From positions 1-20,013 of the IMG/VR virus record IMGVR_UViG_3300044535_001224: a stretch of DNA of 20,013 nt, one strand, 5' to 3'. Made by a program: the position numbers and the translations under genes. Positions 2,984 through 12,171 of this stretch are shown in pieces. The first letter of the stretch is position 1, and each line of letters opens with the position of its first letter. The stretch comes from a virus. Below the pieces are notes generated by a model that saw only the letters and a list, made by a program, of their open reading frames with translations, was not told where the DNA came from and did not search any database.

Positions 2984-3015
2984 TTTGGTAATCTAAATTA
3001 TTATTCGTATATTTA
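2984..3015 (+). promoter_or_regulatory. Promoter for tmRNA (TTTGGT-N18-TATATTTA)
   Basis: TTTGGT at 2984-2989 and TATATTTA at 3008-3015 are separated by exactly 18 bases, the same architecture as six other sites in the window. The pair matches the Bacteroidetes -33/-7 promoter. The -7 box ends 11 bases before the predicted mature tmRNA 5' end, so it would produce a transcript with a very short 5' extension. Confidence 0.75.
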
Positions 3016-3026
3016 CATAATTATAT

Positions 3027-3413
3027 GGGGATGCCATGGATTTGATTGCGATGAGAATGGTAGTACCACACGTAGACAGAAGTGCTAGATGTCTTTAAAT
3101 CTGTACAAAACAATAACTGACGTAGAATTATCTACTTGGACCTTTGATGATGTAATGTCATTCATGGGTGCTGATTTAGCTGTAGCAGCCTAATCACCTC
3201 CCGTATCACTCATGGGGTTTAAAAAAGAAGTGAACAAAAAGGAGCTCTACCTATCGGCTCTCTAAAACTGATAGGTTGGTGGAAAGCTGTACTAACCATA
3301 CGGCCCCAATTATTTTGGAAAGTAAATAAGATTAAACTTTATCCTAAACGTGTGACATGCTGGTATTATGATTACTTCGTAAGACAGGGGTTCGATTCCC
3401 CTCATCTCCACCA
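3027..3413 (+). ncRNA. ssrA: tmRNA (transfer-messenger RNA), phage-encoded
   Basis: This is a 387-nt tmRNA that rescues stalled ribosomes by trans-translation. The 5' GGGGATG (3027-3033) pairs with CATCTCC (3403-3409), giving a 7-bp acceptor stem with a G3-U70 wobble and discriminator A, the alanine identity signals; CCA is encoded (3411-3413). The T arm is AGGGG-TTCGATT-CCCCT (3386-3402). The 5' domain has the tmRNA-like GGATTTGATTGCG D-like segment. The likely resume codon is GAC at 3119, preceded by TAACT (compare TAGTC before the E. coli resume codon). From there a 24-codon tag frame runs to TAA at 3191-3193, beginning DVELST and ending ADLAVAA. Downstream complementary segments such as CCTATC/GATAGG suggest the usual pseudoknots. 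The tag is longer than typical bacterial ones of about 10 residues and ends AVAA rather than ALAA. RNA identity is very secure; the resume codon is inferred. Confidence 0.95.
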
Positions 3414-3420
3414 TTTTTTT

Positions 3421-3458
3421 GAATCCTCAATTTACATTTGGTAATTTGGGGATTTTTT
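3421..3458 (+). terminator. Intrinsic terminator after tmRNA
   Basis: AATCCTCAA (3422-3430) pairs with the TTTGGGGATT region (3444-3453), with one G-U pair, and is followed by a run of T (3453-3458). It lies eight bases after the tmRNA CCA. The loop contains the -33 box of the next promoter. Confidence 0.75.
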
Positions 3459-3468
3459 CGTATATTTG
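3437..3468 (+). promoter_or_regulatory. Promoter for the polymerase operon (TTTGGT-N18-TATATTTG)
   Basis: TTTGGT at 3437-3442 and TATATTTG at 3461-3468 are spaced by 18 bases. The -33 box sits in the loop of the tmRNA terminator and the T-run falls in the spacer, so terminator and promoter are interleaved. The ATG it serves is 16 bases past the -7 box. Confidence 0.75.
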
Positions 3469-3483
3469 TATAAATTTGTTTAT

Positions 3484-3750
3484 ATGGGAAGGTGGCCAGA
3501 ACCGGCAAAAGAAAAGCCTACAAAGTTTGAAATAACCTATAAAGATGATGATGGGTGTGAATCCGTATGGAAATATGATTTGAAAAAATTTCCAAATGGA
3601 CCGATAGAGGTTACAAATAAGTTTCCGCCTCATTATGAGAAGGCGTTGAAAAAACAACAAAAGGAAGCTAAATTGGCAAAAAAGCAATCAACATTAGAAA
3701 AAGCAAAGGCTGCAAATAAGAATGATAAGGATAGTAGAAAATATTGGTGA
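3484..3750 (+). CDS. Small lysine-rich protein of unknown function
   Basis: This is an 88-residue protein starting MGRWPEPAKEKPTKF. I chose the ATG at 3484 because the only in-frame start further upstream, a TTG at 3466, lies inside the promoter's -7 box. The first ~55 residues look like a small mixed fold (FEITYKDDDGCESVWKYDL, KKFPNGPIEVTNKFPPHY). The rest is a highly charged Lys/Ala/Gln helix (KALKKQQKEAKLAKKQ) likely to be coiled or nucleic-acid-binding. There is no signal peptide or membrane segment. The 3' end overlaps the polymerase-like gene by 29 bases, so translation is probably coupled and the protein may be an accessory to it. I do not recognise the family. Confidence 0.65.
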   Translation: MGRWPEPAKEKPTKFEITYKDDDGCESVWKYDLKKFPNGPIEVTNKFPPHYEKALKKQQKEAKLAKKQSTLEKAKAANKNDKDSRKYW

Positions 3751-5005
3751 GATTGATGAATTAAAGAGGATTTTGGAAACTGAACCATCGGTTTGGTATC
3801 CTATGTGGGTGGATAATGATAAACATCCACGAAACACACATATATCCTTTATTTTCGTAAGAACTTTGACAGACCGATATATTCTACCACATCAACATAC
3901 AGACTCTCTATCACTCTCTAAATCACTAATAGAGGGTATCTTAAATACAAAAGGGGATAAGTGGGTATTCCAAAAGAAAAAGCTACTACAATCGTTTCAA
4001 AATATAAGGGAAGGATTGAATGACATTGATACCGCTTATTTCTTAAAAACAGGTGAAACGATAGACTACCAACAACCACTACAACACCTGGTAGCTCCCT
4101 TATTACACAAAGGTTACAAAGAAGATGTCATTCAATCTATTCCCATTCTTAAACTTGCGGAAGCGATAGAACCGGAATTGAGAAAAACTTATAGACAAAA
4201 ATCTAAAACTTATAATTGGTACAACGATATCTTCTTACCCATCCTTTCAGAGATTGAGGGATATGGGGTTCGGGTCGATGAGAAAAAATTTATTGATAGA
4301 TGGCCACAAGCCCAGAAACACTTAAAAGGAGATGTGGTATATACCGAATACAATCCATTCACCGTAACCGGTCGTCCATCCAATCGTCATGGCGGTGTGA
4401 ACTATGCGGCATTGAATAAATCGGATGGTAGTAGAGATGTGTTTGTATCGGATGGGATATTCTTACAAATGGATTATAATGCGTATCACCCTCGTCTTAT
4501 CGGTAAGTTGATTAAGTTCGAAATGCCGGATGGTAACGTACACCAATGGTTAGCTGACCAATATGGGTGTAGTGTTGATGAATCCAAAGGGGTTACGTTC
4601 CAATTATTGTATGGTGGTATTGATGATGATTTCCGCCAAATTCCATATTTCAATGCCGTAGCTGATTATATTGATAACCTATGGATTGAAACACAAAAGC
4701 TGGGATACTTACAAACACCACATCGTATTATTCCTTTGGAGTGGATTGAAGGGGCTAACCCACAAAAAGTATTTAACTATCTACTACAAGCGGTTGAGAC
4801 TGAGATGAACGTAGATGTTATGGGAAAGGTATTGGGTTATATAAAGGGGAGTGATATAAAGTTTTGTTTATACACATACGATTCATTCCTTTTTGATGTT
4901 CCTACTGATGTGGATAAAGAATTGGTTAAAGGATTGAAGGAAATCATTGAAGGTAGTGGGTTTCCTGTAAAAGCAAGTTGGGGTTTAGATTACGGAAAGT
5001 TATAA
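3722..5005 (+). CDS. Divergent, compact family A DNA polymerase
   Basis: This 427-residue protein carries the PolA palm/fingers motifs in order: TGRPSN (216-221, cf. TGRLSS); motif A QMDYNAYHPR with Asp251; motif B KGVTFQLLYG with Lys289, Phe293 and Tyr297 at the spacing of the E. coli O-helix residues K758/F762/Y766; and motif C TYDSFLF with Asp387. Both metal-binding aspartates are therefore kept, but the usual HDE of motif C reads YDS, and the O-helix Arg four residues before the Lys is absent. The N-terminal ~160 residues may be a worn-down 3'-5' exonuclease fold, but I see no convincing catalytic carboxylate set. At under half the length of bacterial PolI, it has no room for a 5' nuclease domain; one is encoded separately at 14385. 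It is likely the phage polymerase or a repair/accessory form. Confidence 0.75.
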   Translation: MIRIVENIGEIDELKRILETEPSVWYPMWVDNDKHPRNTHISFIFVRTLTDRYILPHQHTDSLSLSKSLIEGILNTKGDKWVFQKKKLLQSFQNIREGLNDIDTAYFLKTGETIDYQQPLQHLVAPLLHKGYKEDVIQSIPILKLAEAIEPELRKTYRQKSKTYNWYNDIFLPILSEIEGYGVRVDEKKFIDRWPQAQKHLKGDVVYTEYNPFTVTGRPSNRHGGVNYAALNKSDGSRDVFVSDGIFLQMDYNAYHPRLIGKLIKFEMPDGNVHQWLADQYGCSVDESKGVTFQLLYGGIDDDFRQIPYFNAVADYIDNLWIETQKLGYLQTPHRIIPLEWIEGANPQKVFNYLLQAVETEMNVDVMGKVLGYIKGSDIKFCLYTYDSFLFDVPTDVDKELVKGLKEIIEGSGFPVKASWGLDYGKL

Positions 5006-5043: not shown

Positions 5044-5649
5044 ATGAAAAAATTGATGTTTCTTTTATCGTTTTTAATCGTTTCTTTGGTTTCAATTGGA
5101 CAAGCGGATGTGAGAATTAAGAATGAAGTGTTTGAAGTACTTTATTCACAATCATTAGAACAACCCCTAGTGATTAAATATCGTTCAACTAATAGACCTA
5201 CAAATGTGAATAGAGGAGCTATGGATTTCTACAAAGAACCAACAATCAAAACATCAGATGGAGATGATTATAAAGCAAATGTTTATGATAAAGGACATGG
5301 AGCTCCTGCTGCATCATTTTCTGATAATATGGAAAATTTGAAGCAAACTTTTTCATATCTAAATTGTATAATGCAAAATCAATATCTTAATAGAGGTGAG
5401 TGGAGATTGTTAGAAGAACAAATTCGTAAGTGGGATGATGTAGAACCAATCACCGTTTTAATAAAAACTTTTTTTGATACTCCTGTTAAAAGAGTACCAA
5501 CTGGGGCAGCAATCCCATCATATTTACAAAAACATGTTTACTTTGAAAAATCAAATAAATGGAAATGTTTTGTATTTCTAAATGAAAAACCAAAATTTCA
5601 TTGGGACGAGTTAGAAATGATATGTGAACCGGCTGACCACAAATTTTAA
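5044..5649 (+). CDS. Exported DNA/RNA non-specific endonuclease (NUC family)
   Basis: This is a 201-residue protein from the ATG at 5044. That start places a classic signal peptide at the N-terminus (MKKLMFLLSFLIVSLVSIGQ, likely cleaved after Ala21); upstream in-frame codons would spoil it. The mature part carries the Serratia-nuclease (beta-beta-alpha metal) signature: DKGH at 82-85 in place of DRGH, with catalytic His85, then LNRGEW at 115-120 giving metal-ligand Asn116, and Glu124 at the spacing of Serratia N119/E127. Family members cut single- and double-stranded DNA and RNA with Mg2+. With a signal peptide it should act in the periplasm or outside the cell, so it could degrade incoming competitor DNA or extracellular DNA or supply nucleotides; that role is inference. 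It lies six bases before the giant protein gene, probably in the same transcript. Confidence 0.85.
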   Translation: MKKLMFLLSFLIVSLVSIGQADVRIKNEVFEVLYSQSLEQPLVIKYRSTNRPTNVNRGAMDFYKEPTIKTSDGDDYKANVYDKGHGAPAASFSDNMENLKQTFSYLNCIMQNQYLNRGEWRLLEEQIRKWDDVEPITVLIKTFFDTPVKRVPTGAAIPSYLQKHVYFEKSNKWKCFVFLNEKPKFHWDELEMICEPADHKF

Positions 5650-5655
5650 TGAATT

Positions 5656-8600
5656 ATGAACGTATCTCAATTAATTAATGAAATTCTTACCGAATGGGCA
5701 TACCGAGTAGATGATGGAATGCCAAATCCAAAAAACCCAACCCATATAAAAGAGTTGGGTATTGTGCTTTCTGAAATGGGTCTATCTCATATCAAAAACC
5801 AATTGGTTGAAAATCTATTAACTGAAAAAGGAAAAACTCCAGAAAAGCATGTGGTAGAAGCGGATAAGCAATTTAAAAATCCTATTTTAAATAAAAGTAT
5901 AAAATACAAAAATACTAAAGGAGAAGATACCGAAGGATTGGTTGGTAACCTTTTGAGATTACCGGCTGAACATCCTGGTAGAAAAGCAGCGGAAAGAATG
6001 TTACCACCGGAAGGGTCAGAGGAAAGAGATACAATTAATAAAGATTTAGGTGGTGAAAACCAACCAGAAAAACCAGAAACACCAACTGATGATAAGGGTG
6101 GTGGGGAACAACAACCAAAAGAAGACCCAATTCAAAAAGCGGCTCCAATGTTTGACCCTAAATTAGACCCTGCTATGGGAGTACGTTTAGATAAAGAAAA
6201 AGAAACTCTTGCTCAATTGGCAAAAGATGATGAAGAAAAGGATGCGGAAGCTGAAAAAGAAGTTAAACCAAAAGAGGAAACTGAATTTAATCCAATAGCA
6301 GCTGTAGATGTTCAAAGTGAAATACCAGAAGCCGATCCTGACACATTTGGTGGTGAATCTGATATACCAGATGGAATTGGCGAAAAAGAATTAGAACAAT
6401 TTAATACTGATATAAAGAAAGTAAAAGATATTGTCGCCGATGCAAAGGCTAAAGGTGAAAAAGCACCAAACATTAACCTTTGTCAAATAACAGTGCCTGG
6501 TACTAACTTATATTGTGATGATAATTTAGGTATTCCAAGAGCAGAGATGCCACAATTTAAAGGTAAAGCAATTGAGGGTAGTAGAGCGGCTAATATGCCA
6601 GTTGATGCGAGTGGTGAAGTAGATACTGAACCTGTATTCAAAGAAATGTTGAAAGAAAAAGGAATTACCGTTTCACAAACCGAAGTTCCCGCTGATAAAT
6701 TAAAAGCAACTCAATCTGAATTGGTTGGTGCTAAAGTGGTGGGAATGATGGGAGCATTGGAAGAAAATCCAGAACATGAAAAAATTACTGCACCAATTTA
6801 TGTGAGTAGAGATGGATATGTAATTGATGGTCATCATAGATGGGCAGCTATAGCGGCATATAACGCAGCACATTCAGATTCTCAAATACAAATGAAAGTT
6901 CAGGTAATTGATATGGATATTAAAGATGCTATCCCAATGTGTAATAAATTTGCAGAAGATATGGGTATAGCAGCTAAAAAAGCAGATGCTAATAAGGAAA
7001 CGCCAACCGAACCAAAAGCTGCAGAAGTAAAACCAAATGAAACTGATCCTGAATCAAATGTAAAAACATTTAAAGGTGAATCATCTGGTAAAGAAATAAA
7101 AACAATTGAATTTGAAGGTGGTGGATACCTTTTTGGAACCGTTCATAGAGACGAAAAAATGGTTGATGATATTGTAAATCAGGTAAAAGCAACCGTACCA
7201 AAAGAAAAGTGGAAAGATATTGTATTTGTTGGTGAAGGTGGTGCAACCGGTAATAGTGGTGAATTGGAGTTCAATGATGAAATGATACCTGCACAAGAAA
7301 AATTTAAAGAAATGGGTGCGGGTGTGGATAGTTTTGATGGAGATGCATTAGATGTACACAAACCCGAATCTGAATTATATAAATCACAAGAGAAACAAAC
7401 TGGCCTTTCACAAAGTAAAATCAAAGCTGGTAATTGGGCTAGTATGATTGGACAAGGTGAGGGTACTGATACAATGGAGACATCTAAATTTTTAGATAAT
7501 GAAGGTAAACAATTCTTACAAGATGCAGCTAAAGAAGCTGGATTCCCACCAATACGAAATTGGGATAATCCATCTGAACAAGATAAAGATACACTATATA
7601 GATTATCATTTCCAGAAGACAATGGCGATAGAGAAACCGGAGTAAATGATATTCAGGTTGCATTTAATAAAGCAAGAGACCTTAATATTATTAAAAAACA
7701 AAAAGAATTATCTGCACAAGGTAAAATACCGGTTGTAGTTGCAGGTGAGGGACATGCTGATTTAGTTGATGATATATGGAGACAAAAAAACAAAAACGAA
7801 CAAATTCAAATGAAAGAAGAATTATTACCATTAGTTGATAAAATGATTGGTCAAATTATTGAAGGATTTATTGAAGAAGCTAATCCGAAACCATCTCAAA
7901 CACATCCTGGATATTATCATAGAGGGGGTGGGTATTATTCTAAACAAGCTGATGGTGATATTACACATAAAACCGATGGTGGTGCTTTAAGAAAATTAAC
8001 AGCAAAAGAAAAAGCAGATAAGAATAAAACAGCAGCTCCTAAACCAAAAGCACAAGTTGGTAAAACAATTGCTCCAAGTGGATTTAGACAAACCAAAGAT
8101 TTAAAAAAATCAACTCCAAAGGCAGAACCAAAACCGGTAACTACGGATAATTCAACTCCATCGGTAGTTTCTAATGGATTAAATAATGGTAGTTTACAAT
8201 CATTGAGAAGTGTAAATGCAAAATTGATTTCAGATAGAGATAAGGGAATAGCTGGAGCGGGTGGTCCTGTTGCATCATATGGAGAAGCTGCACTTACTAC
8301 ATTTGCAAACAAATTACAAGAAGTTGGTGGGTTTGAAGGATATGTAGCGGGAAATAAAAACGCAGTTGCTAAAAAAGTTGGTGAAATTAGCAAAAATAGA
8401 AAAGCATTTAAAAGTTCAATAGAAACCGTAGCTAGACAATTGGGATTTGTTTTACCAAAGGATGAAGCTAAAGTTTTAGAATATATTGGTGCAAGAATCG
8501 TATTTGGTGATAATGAATTGGCTAGATTGAAAAAAGATAAAAATTCATTATGGTATAAAACCGGAAAACAAGGATTTGGACAAGATGAAGATGCGTTTAG

Positions 8601-9894
8601 AGCATGGGCTAGAGCGGATTTTGATGGAGCAATATCAACTAGAATATTAATTCAAGAACAATCTAAAATTGATACAAGCAAAGATTATATTGTTATACAA
8701 TCAGACCCAAAGAAGGGTGGACATGATGATGGTATTATAAACCATTTGAATTCTAAATTAGAACAAGCGAAAGCAAAAGGTAATAAGGATGATATCGCAC
8801 ATTATCAAGCCGAGGTGTATGCGTTTACCAAATTAGGATTCCATGATACTATGGCAGTTGGATTTGATAAGAAAGGAAGAACAACTGTGTTCAGTATTAC
8901 AAATAAAAAACAAGATGACTTACAAGATATATGGGGTAATACAACTCCTGAATATGCTTTAAATTTAATTAAAGATTCTTTTGGACCTAAAGTATCTGGT
9001 ACGGTTGTAAGTGTTATTGAAGATGGAATACTTAAAGTTTCAAATAGTAAAAAAGCAACAACAAGACTGTTTTCTACAATGAAATTAAATGATGATTTTG
9101 TTGCTGTATGTGATACACCACAAATGAAAAAATATATGGGACAATTGAAATCTCATAAAAAATTCAATCAATGGTTATCTGATAAAAAATATAATCCAAC
9201 CGAAACAAAAGAGTGGTTGGTTCTTGCACAAAAATATGCAAAAGAAAACGATGATGCTCCATACGAACCATTTGGAAAATTTGTACATAAAGTTGGTGAG
9301 TTGGCGCAAGTTGGACCGTTTGTAAGAAAACATACTGAAATTAATTTTGAATCTTCTGCAGTTAAAAAAGCAGTTCAGAATAAAAACGATGAAAAAGAAT
9401 TAACTGCAGCGGTGCATAGAGATGTAGTAGATTCAATAGCGGAAGCAGATAAAGTAGCTGGATATCCTAAAAAGGATGGTGTAAATGGTCCGCATACACA
9501 AGCATATCTTACAACTGTAATGCATTCAATGCACTTTGATTTGATGGTTGAAAACTTTGATGGTAATTTAGGAGCTATCACAGGTATACGAGGTTCAGTT
9601 CCATCAGACTTTAGAGAGTGTTTAACGAAATTAAGTGGATTTAAAGGTGAAATCAAAACAAAAGAAGGAAGAGATTTACTAAATAAACACTTATTACAAA
9701 GATGTAAACTAAATCCACAAACAAGAGCTATTGAAATTACAAATGAAGAAGGTACTAGTGTTTTGGCAGAAGATACTTGGAGAACTGCCGGTACATCTCA
9801 AAAAGTAGAAAAGAAACTTGGTGGTGGTTTAAGAAGTTGTATTACTAACAGAATTGATAAAAGACAAGCTGATAAACGAGCAAAGGGTATGTAA
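5656..9894 (+). CDS. Giant multidomain (polyvalent-type) phage protein with ParB-like and TIKI/TraB-like domains
   Basis: This 1412-residue protein has several modules. Residues 1-57 are amphipathic helices with LTE motifs (11-13, 55-57). About 120-260 is an acidic Pro/Glu/Lys-rich linker. About 300-440 is a ParB/sulfiredoxin-like domain with KATQSEL and DGHHRW (391-396). About 480-710 holds GTVH (494-497), Glu527 and GEGH (697-700), that is, two GX2H motifs and a Glu as in the TIKI/TraB/EreA metalloprotease-like superfamily. At 734-742, IIEGFIEE-A is followed by an Ala/Lys/Pro linker to ~840, and a long C-terminal region (850-1412) is mostly unrecognised; GFHDTMAVGF...ITNKK near 1061-1085 is weakly PD-(D/E)xK-like. 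There is no signal peptide. Phage polyvalent proteins of this kind are often packaged and injected. The last codons and stop form part of a terminator. Domain calls are by motif only; the gene itself is certain. Confidence 0.7.
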   Translation: MNVSQLINEILTEWAYRVDDGMPNPKNPTHIKELGIVLSEMGLSHIKNQLVENLLTEKGKTPEKHVVEADKQFKNPILNKSIKYKNTKGEDTEGLVGNLLRLPAEHPGRKAAERMLPPEGSEERDTINKDLGGENQPEKPETPTDDKGGGEQQPKEDPIQKAAPMFDPKLDPAMGVRLDKEKETLAQLAKDDEEKDAEAEKEVKPKEETEFNPIAAVDVQSEIPEADPDTFGGESDIPDGIGEKELEQFNTDIKKVKDIVADAKAKGEKAPNINLCQITVPGTNLYCDDNLGIPRAEMPQFKGKAIEGSRAANMPVDASGEVDTEPVFKEMLKEKGITVSQTEVPADKLKATQSELVGAKVVGMMGALEENPEHEKITAPIYVSRDGYVIDGHHRWAAIAAYNAAHSDSQIQMKVQVIDMDIKDAIPMCNKFAEDMGIAAKKADANKETPTEPKAAEVKPNETDPESNVKTFKGESSGKEIKTIEFEGGGYLFGTVHRDEKMVDDIVNQVKATVPKEKWKDIVFVGEGGATGNSGELEFNDEMIPAQEKFKEMGAGVDSFDGDALDVHKPESELYKSQEKQTGLSQSKIKAGNWASMIGQGEGTDTMETSKFLDNEGKQFLQDAAKEAGFPPIRNWDNPSEQDKDTLYRLSFPEDNGDRETGVNDIQVAFNKARDLNIIKKQKELSAQGKIPVVVAGEGHADLVDDIWRQKNKNEQIQMKEELLPLVDKMIGQIIEGFIEEANPKPSQTHPGYYHRGGGYYSKQADGDITHKTDGGALRKLTAKEKADKNKTAAPKPKAQVGKTIAPSGFRQTKDLKKSTPKAEPKPVTTDNSTPSVVSNGLNNGSLQSLRSVNAKLISDRDKGIAGAGGPVASYGEAALTTFANKLQEVGGFEGYVAGNKNAVAKKVGEISKNRKAFKSSIETVARQLGFVLPKDEAKVLEYIGARIVFGDNELARLKKDKNSLWYKTGKQGFGQDEDAFRAWARADFDGAISTRILIQEQSKIDTSKDYIVIQSDPKKGGHDDGIINHLNSKLEQAKAKGNKDDIAHYQAEVYAFTKLGFHDTMAVGFDKKGRTTVFSITNKKQDDLQDIWGNTTPEYALNLIKDSFGPKVSGTVVSVIEDGILKVSNSKKATTRLFSTMKLNDDFVAVCDTPQMKKYMGQLKSHKKFNQWLSDKKYNPTETKEWLVLAQKYAKENDDAPYEPFGKFVHKVGELAQVGPFVRKHTEINFESSAVKKAVQNKNDEKELTAAVHRDVVDSIAEADKVAGYPKKDGVNGPHTQAYLTTVMHSMHFDLMVENFDGNLGAITGIRGSVPSDFRECLTKLSGFKGEIKTKEGRDLLNKHLLQRCKLNPQTRAIEITNEEGTSVLAEDTWRTAGTSQKVEKKLGGGLRSCITNRIDKRQADKRAKGM

Positions 9895-9917
9895 AAATAC
9901 CCTTTCATCCGTTTTTT
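9882..9917 (+). terminator. Intrinsic terminator overlapping the stop codon of the giant gene
   Basis: AAAGGGTAT (9882-9890) and ATACCCTTT (9897-9905) form a perfect 9-bp stem, with the TAA stop codon inside the 6-base loop. A T-run follows at 9912-9917, six bases after the stem. It is a strong candidate for ending the nuclease/giant-protein transcript. Confidence 0.75.
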
Positions 9918-9927
9918 CATATTTATA
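9918..9927 (+). promoter_or_regulatory. CATATTTATA motif, possible second-class phage promoter
   Basis: This is the same ten bases as at 5010 and 17204, placed immediately after a terminator and 38 bases before the next ATG, where a promoter is needed. No TTTGGT box is present at the N18 position. Confidence 0.45.
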
Positions 9928-9955
9928 GATGATATAAAAGAAAAGGGAAAAGCGG

Positions 9956-10384
9956 ATGAAAACACAGTTACTATGTACGTTTACAACGAAGGGTGAGTTA
10001 CAGAATACATTACAATTAATTAGAGAAACTTACCACATCGTTTATAATTACATTTATATTCTCCAAAATAAGGCGAATTTAGATGAATTATTTATCACGT
10101 ACAATATTGATACAGCATTCCAACCGGATACTCCGTTGGAAAATACAATTTTAATACATAGAAAAAAAGAGTCTAACTCACTTTATACTATTAATGCTCT
10201 TAACGAATTAGTTAAAGAGGAAAATGGTGGAGTGTTAGATACTTCTTTTGTCATCAATTGGCAGAAGTTTAAAAATTCAATCATATTAACCAACGCCGAA
10301 GGTACTAAAAAAATTCAAACAAGAGTTTTTGAAGTAATTGACTTTGGTGAAGGAAAAGAGGTTATAACTGAAGAACGCAAATAA
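9956..10384 (+). CDS. Conserved hypothetical T4-like phage protein
   Basis: This is a 142-residue soluble protein starting MKTQLLCTFTTKGELQ. The segment LIHRKKESNSLYTINALNEL (about residues 61-84) and the following NGG...INWQKFKNSIIL resemble, from memory, a conserved hypothetical family in marine T4-like phages containing a 'TLYTINALN' motif. No function is known to me. There is no signal peptide or membrane helix. It lies seven bases before the endolysin gene and after a terminator, so it is probably the first gene of a short late operon with the endolysin. The gene call is strong; the family link is from memory and should be treated as moderate. Confidence 0.7.
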   Translation: MKTQLLCTFTTKGELQNTLQLIRETYHIVYNYIYILQNKANLDELFITYNIDTAFQPDTPLENTILIHRKKESNSLYTINALNELVKEENGGVLDTSFVINWQKFKNSIILTNAEGTKKIQTRVFEVIDFGEGKEVITEERK

Positions 10385-10391
10385 TATTATT

Positions 10392-11225
10392 ATGTTATTA
10401 AAAAAAGGTGATAACAACGAAAACGTAAAATTGATGCAGGAGAAATTAGGTATCTCTCCGGCAGTTACTAACTTTGGTCCTAAAACCGAAGCAGCAGTAA
10501 AAGAATTCCAATCTAAACATGGACTTCCTGCAGATGGTATTGTAGGTGATGCAACTTGGGCTAAAATTATGGGAGAGGGAACTCCACCACCGGCACCAGC
10601 AGCACCAATAGCACCAGTAGGTGGGTTAAAATTGGATAAATTAAAAGGACACATTCCTGATGCAGTAATCGCTATGATTCCTGATACGGCAGCTAAGTTC
10701 CAAATTAATACTCCATTAAGATTAGCACACTTCTTAGCACAATGTGGACATGAGAGTGGTGGATTTAGAGTAACACAAGAAAACCTAAACTATTCGGCTA
10801 AAGGATTGGCTGGTATCTTTAAGAAATATTTCCCAACTGAAGCAGCGGCAACTCCATATGCTAGACAACCACAAAAGATTGCAAACAAAGTATATGCAAA
10901 TCGTATGGCTAATGGTTCTGAAGCAAGTGGTGATGGCTACAAATTCAGAGGTAGAGGATATATCCAATTAACAGGTAGAGATAACTACACTCAATTCGGT
11001 AAAGCAATTGGTGAAGATATTGCAAATAATCCAGATGCAGTTAGTGGACAATACGCATTATTATCAGCAGCTTGGTTCTGGTCTAAAAATGGATTGAATA
11101 AGTTGGCAGATGGTGGTGCAAATGATACTGTGGTAACATCTATTACTAAAAGAGTAAATGGTGGTACAATTGGTTTACCAGACCGTATCAAACACTTTAA
11201 AGAATATTATCATTTACTAGCATAA
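10392..11225 (+). CDS. Endolysin: peptidoglycan-binding domain plus GH19 muramidase/chitinase-like domain
   Basis: This 277-residue lysis enzyme would cleave host peptidoglycan at the end of infection. Residues 1-59 form a PG_binding_1 domain (KKGDNNENVKLMQEKLGI, FGPKTEAAVKEFQSKHGL, DGIVGDATW). A Pro/Ala linker (~64-76) follows, then a glycoside hydrolase family 19 domain with AQCGHESGGF, where Glu121 is the likely general acid, and the family signature YKFRGRGYIQLTGRDNY. Length and order fit GH19 phage endolysins. There is no signal peptide or membrane anchor, so release to the periplasm should need a holin; none is visible nearby. It is the second gene after the terminator at 9882. Substrate (muramic-acid versus chitin linkages) is inferred from the phage context. 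Confidence 0.92.
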   Translation: MLLKKGDNNENVKLMQEKLGISPAVTNFGPKTEAAVKEFQSKHGLPADGIVGDATWAKIMGEGTPPPAPAAPIAPVGGLKLDKLKGHIPDAVIAMIPDTAAKFQINTPLRLAHFLAQCGHESGGFRVTQENLNYSAKGLAGIFKKYFPTEAAATPYARQPQKIANKVYANRMANGSEASGDGYKFRGRGYIQLTGRDNYTQFGKAIGEDIANNPDAVSGQYALLSAAWFWSKNGLNKLADGGANDTVVTSITKRVNGGTIGLPDRIKHFKEYYHLLA

Positions 11226-11228
11226 TAA

Positions 11229-11260
11229 TTTGGTAGATTTATAAAAAAATCGTATATTTA
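11229..11260 (+). promoter_or_regulatory. Promoter (TTTGGT-N18-TATATTTA)
   Basis: TTTGGT at 11229-11234 and TATATTTA at 11253-11260 have the standard 18-base spacer. The ATG at 11278 is 18 bases past the box. The -7 region continues as TATATTTATATTATA, sharing 14 bases with the leader at 5011. Confidence 0.7.
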
Positions 11261-11277
11261 TATTATAAAGTAAAAAA

Positions 11278-12171
11278 ATGGCAAATATCAGATTAAAAGA
11301 ATTACTGGAAGCTAATATAGACCCTAAATTGGTAGCAAGAAGTAAAGAAAGTGGAAAACTTGTTTATTTCAAAACACCACAAGCTAAAGATGCAGCATTG
11401 AAAGCTGGTTCTCATTTAGACCCTAAAGATAAAAAAGATAAAACTCCTAAAGCATCTGCAAAACCAAATGATATGTTTGGTGGAGATTATGCAAAAGATA
11501 GAGGCGGAGAAGCTCCAAAAGCTGATCCTGTTATTGCAGTAGCATCTAGAGCTCAAATGGTCCCAAAACAGTTAGCAGGTTGGGCAGATAAGAATGGTGT
11601 AGACCTTTCCAAAGTATCCGATGCTTTAAATTCAGGTGAGTTAGATGTATTTGATTTTAGAACGGCAGTTAGTGGTATTGATGGTAACAAATACGCTAAA
11701 GATGTAATTGCTAAATATTCACAATCTGATTCTAATACGAAATATTCACAATCAGTTAAACAAGATATTGATGGACAAACTGATGATGAATTATACGATG
11801 CTTTGTATGATATGGGATATGATTTCGGAGAACTTGGCAGTGATGATTTTGATGAAGAAGGATTCGCCGATGCAGCAATAAATTTAGGTTACCGATATGA
11901 TGACAAAAATAAAGTATGGAATCATAGAGATGACATGGATGATAATGATGATTCTGATGTAGATGGACAAGATGATGAGGAATTATATAACGCTTTATCT
12001 GATATGGGATATGATTTTGGAAAATTTGGTAGTAAGAATTTTGATGAAAAAGGATTTGCTGATGCAGCGATAAATTTAGGTTACCGATATGATGACAAAA
12101 ATAAAGTATGGAATCATAGAGATAATGTAAAAGAAAGTTCAACGAAACTAACATCAATGATTAAAAAATAA
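11278..12171 (+). CDS. Acidic repeat protein, candidate packaged internal head protein
   Basis: This is a 297-residue protein of unrecognised family. Residues 1-45 (MANIRLKELLEAN, then SKESGKLVYFK) form a short amphipathic helix ending LLE-A, followed by a GKLVYFK strand. This layout echoes residues 734-765 of the giant protein at 5656 and resembles T4 capsid-targeting sequences that end xLxE/A or FIAE/A. About 45-80 is a Lys/Pro/Asp linker. About 85-145 is a small helical domain. Residues 163-290 hold two acidic 64-residue repeats, each with ELYxAL, DMGYDFG, FADAAINLGYRYDD and VWNHRD. There is no signal peptide or membrane segment. Its own promoter and a strong terminator make it a single-gene unit. 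Packaging in the head is inference. Confidence 0.7.
   Translation: MANIRLKELLEANIDPKLVARSKESGKLVYFKTPQAKDAALKAGSHLDPKDKKDKTPKASAKPNDMFGGDYAKDRGGEAPKADPVIAVASRAQMVPKQLAGWADKNGVDLSKVSDALNSGELDVFDFRTAVSGIDGNKYAKDVIAKYSQSDSNTKYSQSVKQDIDGQTDDELYDALYDMGYDFGELGSDDFDEEGFADAAINLGYRYDDKNKVWNHRDDMDDNDDSDVDGQDDEELYNALSDMGYDFGKFGSKNFDEKGFADAAINLGYRYDDKNKVWNHRDNVKESSTKLTSMIKK
11764..12123 (+). repeat. Tandem duplication of a 192-bp coding unit
   Basis: The unit at 11764-11955 is repeated at 11956-12123 (last part missing), offset by exactly 192 bases (64 codons). The 53 bases at 11879-11931 and 12071-12123 are identical, including third codon positions, while the first halves have diverged. This points to a fairly recent duplication or gene conversion. 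Confidence 0.9.

Follow-up and report, generated by a model that had tools for sequence, protein, structure and literature searches.

The tmRNA gene and its surroundings

The window, i.e., the whole stretch of viral DNA that was analysed, is an IMG/VR record of 20,013 bases. It contains a single tmRNA gene (ssrA) of the one-piece type at 3027-3413 on the plus strand, which also carries its promoter-like site, stems, pseudoknots, tag frame, probable terminator and the polymerase gene described below. ARAGORN read the tag of this gene as DVELSTWTFDDVMSFMGADLAVAA and called no other gene in the window. The only Rfam match returned by cmscan for the window was RF00023 at the same positions, with 83.1 bits (gathering score 47), an E value of 3e-31 and alignment to model positions 1-374 of 374. 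An earlier note, written from the letters alone, had proposed a phage-encoded tmRNA at this place and took a missing covariance-model match as a reason to give the proposal up; both programs bear it out.

The tRNA-like ends described in that note, with G3-U70, the encoded CCA and the T arm, were confirmed in the sequence. The 5' strand of the acceptor stem, GGGGATG including G3, lies at 3027-3033 and has CATCTCC at 3403-3409 as its partner, within a 3' segment (3403-3413, from sequence and Rfam) that also carries the discriminator A and the encoded CCA. Direct reading places G3 opposite the U at 3407 and CCA at 3411-3413. Among 19 aligned tmRNAs the acceptor stem covaries, A5-U68 being replaced by G5-C68 in four relatives (L009, L013, L055 and L059), and the T stem covaries as well. 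PK1 was located by eye at 3074-3106, in a region aligned by Rfam, with the stem AGACA/TGTCT and a second stem GTGC/GTAC. The stop codon of the tag, TAA, was read at 3191-3193 by ARAGORN and in the sequence. PK2 follows at 3199-3233, where the stem TCCCGT/ATGGGG encloses the loop ATCACTC, which pairs with AGTGA at 3229-3233. This assignment is based on covariation: in the stretch just past the stop codon, a script recovered the hairpin, its loop and the pairing partner, with covariation, in 53 of 64 distinct sequences. The compensating stem pairs were TCCCGC/GTGGGA, TTCCGC/GTGGAA, TCTCGC/GTGAGA and TCCCGT/ATGGGA, and the loop changed together with its partner (ATCACTC with AGTGA, ACACATC with ATGTG, ACTCATC with ATGAG). 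Three of the 11 misfits (L260, L301 and L225) look by eye like the same fold with other loop letters, and the other eight differ in sequence. The locus is a tmRNA in every feature open to test, and hence no new kind of system.

Upstream of the gene, a promoter-like site of the Bacteroidota type was found in the sequence at 2984-3015, composed of TTTGG (2984-2988) and TATATTTA (3008-3015), with 20 nt from TTG to TA. Of 72 distinct upstream sequences from the relatives, 62 contain the pattern TTG-N17-23-TAnnTTTR, whose TTG...TAnnTTTR form is that of Bacteroidota promoters. Judging from this conserved promoter-like site, the tmRNA is likely to be expressed. Downstream, a probable intrinsic terminator with 13 of 14 pairs, the loop ATTTG and a T run was recognised by eye at 3422-3458. 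Among the downstream sequences listed (25 of 27 distinct ones), 21 likewise have by eye a hairpin and T run 3' of the tmRNA; a terminator scanner run on the window reported none and did not flag the hairpin at 3422-3458. A second promoter-like site (TTTGG...TATATTTG) was noted at 3437-3468, before a 94-aa frame, its TTTGG overlapping the 3' half of the terminator.

A family A DNA polymerase gene near the tmRNA, at 3722-5005 (phrog_17, E 3.6e-12), was used as the anchor for relatives. Its product shows a 100% match to a record of 273,997 bases that carries the same tmRNA; ARAGORN also located a block of 26 tRNA genes at 5230-12009 of this record (L503). In addition to the polymerase, the window encodes an ssDNA-binding protein, a UvsX-like recombinase, an exonuclease, a DnaB-like helicase, a ribonucleotide reductase and a thioredoxin. 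The order of the replication genes is that of Flavobacterium phage immuto, with other genes interspersed and with polymerases 26% identical (tblastn). From the promoter type and the distant Flavobacterium phage relatives, the DNA probably belongs to a giant phage of Bacteroidota bacteria. Further along, a 297-aa reading frame at 11278-12171 contains an acidic repeat in two nearly identical versions, one of them DELYDALYDMGYDFGELGSDDFDEEGFADAAINLGYRYDDKNKVWNHRD, and gave no PHROGs match.

Reading frame and conservation of the tag

Read directly from GAC at 3119 to the TAA at 3191-3193, the tag frame encodes 24 residues, the same length that ARAGORN gave and that the earlier note had counted up to 3193. 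For the E. coli tmRNA, the accessible part of PMC2481249 puts 12 nt between PK1 and the resume codon on its 3' side, with A86 four nt away from that codon, and reports that changes of A86 strongly reduce activity or shift the frame. In the window, the end of PK1 at 3106 (assigned by eye) lies 12 nt before GAC 3119, and the preceding five bases are UAACU, with UA at -5/-4. As counted by a script, the -4 position before GAC/GCA is A in 166 of 166 loci, which agrees with the A86 rule as given in that part of PMC2481249, and the -5 position is U (149) or C (17). The resume position lies 90-96 nt from the 5' end in those phage tmRNAs where ARAGORN picks the long tag and the true 5' end, and 90-103 nt from it in the sampled Bacteroidota tmRNAs, mis-picks excluded. 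GAC at 3119, which the earlier note had inferred as the resume codon, is supported by the UA at -5/-4, the spacing from PK1 and the conservation of the frame: relatives keep the same frame, peptide and position, and not the different conserved frame that the note had named as fatal to its reading.

In some of these long-tag relatives (L013, L036, L043, L047 and others) ARAGORN picks short tags after PK2, such as VNKPEHYLSAP and EQPQLYLSAV. The VNKPEHYLSAP-like tags, at about 206-241 of some relatives, have the look of mis-picks, the long tag sitting at its usual position, and were rejected. Automatic tag lists for phages may therefore be wrong.

The relatives were taken from viral contigs. The best 80 of 106 DNA polymerase relatives were used as loci, nine further loci came through an 871-aa protein and at least 119 through the 5'-end pattern; some loci share one contig, so distinct sequences were counted where possible. 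The tag pattern was present in 160 of the 209 loci listed, with 41 distinct coding sequences and 28 peptides, and among the remaining 49 are loci that end before the tmRNA, matches to the pattern by chance and tmRNAs of other types. Five of the best 80 polymerase loci have fewer than 700 bases upstream, and one of these (L032) still shows the tag. Among the 75 with at least 700 bases upstream, the tag was found in 72: in 71 by the pattern and in L005 with Ser replacing Thr (DVELSTWSFEDAMAFVGAYDYAVAA). The other three (L006, L075 and L078) have the polymerase and no RF00023 match in the locus. The tag is a feature of a large clade of phages, and the 274-kb record is one of its carriers.

The consensus of the tag is E-[LM]-S-T-[MW]-T-[FY]-[DE]-D-[LAV]-M-A-F-V-G-A-D-Y-A-V-A-A, and its length in the family is 22-26 residues, varying by whole codons. 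The end [YL]AVAA occurs in 22 of the 28 peptides, and AVAA, AYAA or AIAA in 26 of the 28; the 22-residue tag of L243 ends in DLAIA. The earlier note had called the tag divergent, which is right insofar as it differs from host tags and wrong if taken as idiosyncratic, since it is strongly conserved in the phage clade.

Among isolated phages, the window had no megablast match in 50,697 phage records, and two natural tags used as tblastn queries gave no match at E up to 10. The polymerase was matched at 26-32% identity in six phage records, and ARAGORN found no tmRNA in the stretches taken from Flavobacterium phage immuto (first 21 kb) and huge phage LR756508 (41 kb). A search for a bacterial genome with the polymerase of the window found none.

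Pairwise pN/pS over the 41 coding sequences was 0.39 in frame, and for 30 tag sequences of equal length it was 0.37 in frame versus 1.09 and 1.40 in the shifted frames. For the block of 14 codons starting at E (3125-3166), represented by 38 distinct sequences from 166 loci, the ratio was 0.365 versus 1.08 and 1.57 in the other frames, and 0 of 300 column shuffles were as low (mean 1.03, minimum 0.389); the sequences are kin and not independent events, and column shuffling preserves this kinship. The N-terminal 14-codon block is under selection at the amino acid level, and the added part of the tag very likely does something, since related phages keep its amino acid sequence. The idea that the added codons were passively inserted or act as a spacer in the RNA, and that their peptide does nothing, is very improbable in view of these ratios and shuffles. 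The gaps observed in 19 aligned tmRNAs point the same way, those within the tag being whole codons whereas some of those outside it measure 1, 2 or 8 bases. It is scarcely credible that translation resumes inside the frame, at GGT (3167), to give an 8-residue host-like tag, GADLAVAA. The family form GADYAVAA does look like the short host tags, but A at -4, essential according to the part of PMC2481249 consulted, precedes this codon in 0 of 166 loci versus all 166 for GAC/GCA. The codons upstream of the internal site are those under amino acid selection, and nine loci have GGATG directly before the codon, a form in which the tag shows N or E at this place and not G.

Tags of bacteria and of other phages

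Since the replication gene order is common with Flavobacterium phage immuto, Bacteroidota were chosen for the tag comparison. In 198 genomes from the phylum of a Cyclobacterium genome, a tmRNA was found in 189 at E up to 1e-15, and 78 Bacteroidota loci were read: eight from an earlier search, the 30 best and 40 down the list of the 189. ARAGORN gave a tag in 73 of the 78, and 71 of these 73 picks have 8-10 residues, of types such as GENNYALAA, GETSYAMAA, DNNYSYRLAA and ADDYSYAMAA. The two longer picks (L475 and L479) and one pick of length 10 (L484) are apparent mis-picks. The contrast that the earlier note had drawn between short Bacteroidota tags and the long phage tag is thus seen in the genomes sampled.

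Set beside these, the phage tag gives the impression of a host-like tail, G-A-D-Y-A-V-A-A, preceded by about 15 added residues. In the window, the N-terminal module is DVELSTWTFDDVMSF (3119-3163), delimited by its absence from the host-type tags read and by the selection test. The C-terminal part, MGADLAVAA (3164-3190), resembles a short host tag, as in GENNYALAA, ADDYSYAMAA and GEYNYAMAA of Bacteroidota.

A 3'-end scan of viral contigs gave at least 120 stretches, with 111 new loci and nine already-known ones omitted. Among the matches listed, ARAGORN called 73 tmRNAs, 25 of them one-piece, and 12 of the 25 had tags of 21-31 residues: four of the present family, four of a second recurring type and four single picks. 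The second tag family, GNTFAKMAALGL(I/T)(A/R)E(E/A)xVVxA, starts with G-N-T-F-A-K-M-A-A-L-G-L... and has 21 residues. By its DNA pattern it occurs in 62 of 116 loci (L577, L581, L234, L257, L655, L677, L694, L706 and others, some in records above 300 kb), with 36 different coding sequences among them; all 62 have A at -4 relative to the first codon. ARAGORN read the full tag in 20 distinct sequences, for which pN/pS was 0.52 in frame versus 0.88 and 0.91. In 17 loci, including records of 317-321 kb, ARAGORN takes only the last eight residues, and an internal site has A at -4 in 40 of 62, which makes the resume codon less secure here than in the tag of the window. Its initial GNT is also found in host tags such as GNTQYAMAA. 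Its ends (VVKA, VVEA, VVGA, PVVA) often differ from those of host tags, and VVKA, VVEA and PVVA are unlike the usual ClpXP degron. SmpB was absent from 8 of 8 records drawn from the loci of the pattern scan, a set in which the tmRNA was not established in every record and completeness is unknown.

Long conserved tags seem to have more than one origin. They are not the rule among all viral tmRNAs, since most tags from a scan with the canonical 5' end had 8-17 residues, and many looked bacterial or prophage-like. Single long tags were also picked by ARAGORN in the viral tmRNAs of L518, L613, L555, L597 and L614, for example ADEEYRDLLAEAEQIFNNADAYVPEEALLAA (31 residues) and AEDLMSIPTFLNRSVPAVASEAELAMAA (28 residues); the tmRNA of L614 is permuted. 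Another permuted tmRNA (RF04321) lies at 8697-8948 of L263, a viral contig obtained through the same 5' pattern, with the ARAGORN tag GENVYDYQMAA. A motif common to the tags of the window, of the Bxz1 type and of the GNTFAKM type was suggestive by eye and not significant (0.08, 0.222 and 0.142).

Proposed role of the added module and comparison with known systems

It is proposed that the phage tmRNA would be transcribed by the host RNA polymerase from its own promoter, would be charged with alanine and would work with host SmpB to release ribosomes that stall on broken mRNA in the infected cell. It would then add Ala and a two-part tag, i.e., about 15 phage-specific residues (DVELSTWTFDDVMSF) followed by the host-like tail MGADLAVAA. 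The tail, which ends in VAA (AVAA) versus the LAA-COOH type of the ssrA degron for ClpXP, would most likely leave the tagged product open to degradation by host ClpXP. The N-terminal module is hypothesised to be a second signal kept by selection, most likely one that binds a protein of either host or phage (adaptor, chaperone or protease domain) and would thereby alter how fast, or by what route, the rescue products are disposed of. A working phage tmRNA that uses host SmpB, with a tag composed of a ClpXP-type tail and a selected binding module, is on balance probable. The earlier suggestion that a longer tag redirects proteins or recruits an adaptor is now better motivated, because the extra segment is under selection.

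None of the records of seven relatives, which are of unknown completeness, showed SmpB (PF01668), ClpP, SspB (PF04386) or a PF10431 protein (ClpX/ClpB type). There is therefore no support for a partner from these families encoded by the phage, and host SmpB is presumed; the absence of SmpB, ClpP and PF10431 proteins fits the use of host machinery. In E. coli, the adaptor SspB binds the N-terminal part of the tmRNA tag. Among 14 control genomes, PF04386 matched only in E. coli and Caulobacter, and not in Bacteroides ihuae. The module reads like an N-capped helix, with T, N or S in the cap position, D or S three positions later and a terminal G. An amphipathic helix was considered and rejected, as its hydrophobic moment did not exceed that of shuffled controls (0.06-0.80 for ten tags of the family and 0.16 for FEDLMAFV permutations). 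Mimicry of a phage protein by the tag was also rejected: when the 274-kb record was cut into 20-kb pieces and its 6,950 stop-to-stop frames were searched with a profile, the sole significant match was the tmRNA itself, and the next had E 1.6.

Two further alternatives concern the origin and the effect of the long tag. Its inheritance from a bacterial lineage that has long tags itself is improbable. Longer bacterial tmRNA tags do exist outside Bacteroidota and the sample covers a part of bacterial diversity, but the Bacteroidota picks are short (71 of 73), and the phage-type 5' end, with 86 occurrences in genome_contigs (84,980 species), gave one tmRNA by ARAGORN (L414, with the 17-residue tag ADSNELVGVPAMATVAA) and the long-tag motif in none of the 86 loci. 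A rather unlikely reading is that the long tag is non-degradative or slow, the phage mainly needing ribosome release and the module masking or weakening the ClpXP signal. The AVAA, AYAA or AIAA tails of 26 of the 28 peptides, versus the ALAA/AMAA of most sampled hosts, would agree with it, as would the ends of the second family, which are far from LAA. Against it, the C-terminal end is conserved ([YL]AVAA in 22 of 28), suggesting that recognition of the end still matters.

tmRNA tags are usually described as short degrons. A tag whose length in a phage clade is over double that of the sampled Bacteroidota tags, and whose amino acids are conserved, would imply a second function and a partner. 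A second, apparently unrelated conserved long tag suggests a recurrent phage strategy and offers an approach to the question of why tmRNA is present in large phages at all. Tentatively, large phages may have, at least twice independently, made the tmRNA tag a two-signal label, with a host-type end and a phage module that binds a dedicated receptor. If so, rescue products would be handled by a route chosen by the phage (another protease, a chaperone or sequestration) and not by the host default.

tmRNAs in phages are known, with a list in the accessible part of PMC4131195. They are encoded by 402 of 18,146 phage genomes according to the part of PMC9004378 consulted, and huge phages have tmRNA together with SmpB in the part of PMC7162821 available. 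In the literature searched, with partial coverage of the sources, no description of long, conserved tags in phage tmRNAs was found. The marine phage Melnitz and pelagiphages share with the window a phage-encoded tmRNA, but theirs is a permuted two-piece RNA of alphaproteobacterial type, and no discussion of long tags was found in the same part of PMC9004378. The Bxz1-type mycobacteriophage Rabinovish (MH590593) is closer in form, with a phage-borne one-piece tmRNA and a 25-residue tag, ATDTDATVTDAEIEAFFAEEAAALV, so the earlier note was right in comparing the tag with those of this type of phage. It differs in having an unrelated host and an unrelated tag, which ends in AALV and whose similarity to that of the window (0.222) is not above shuffled controls. 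The second long-tag family has in common with the window its occurrence in viral contigs, a long conserved tag and A at -4, whereas its peptide is another one (similarity of 0.08 in the shuffle test). The tmRNAs of Bacteroidota are likewise one-piece, with a GGGG start, a resume position in a similar place and an A-A tag end, but their tags have 8-10 residues, in contrast to 22-26 with a conserved N-terminal module in the phages. The two-part conserved tag is an uncommon variant of tmRNA.
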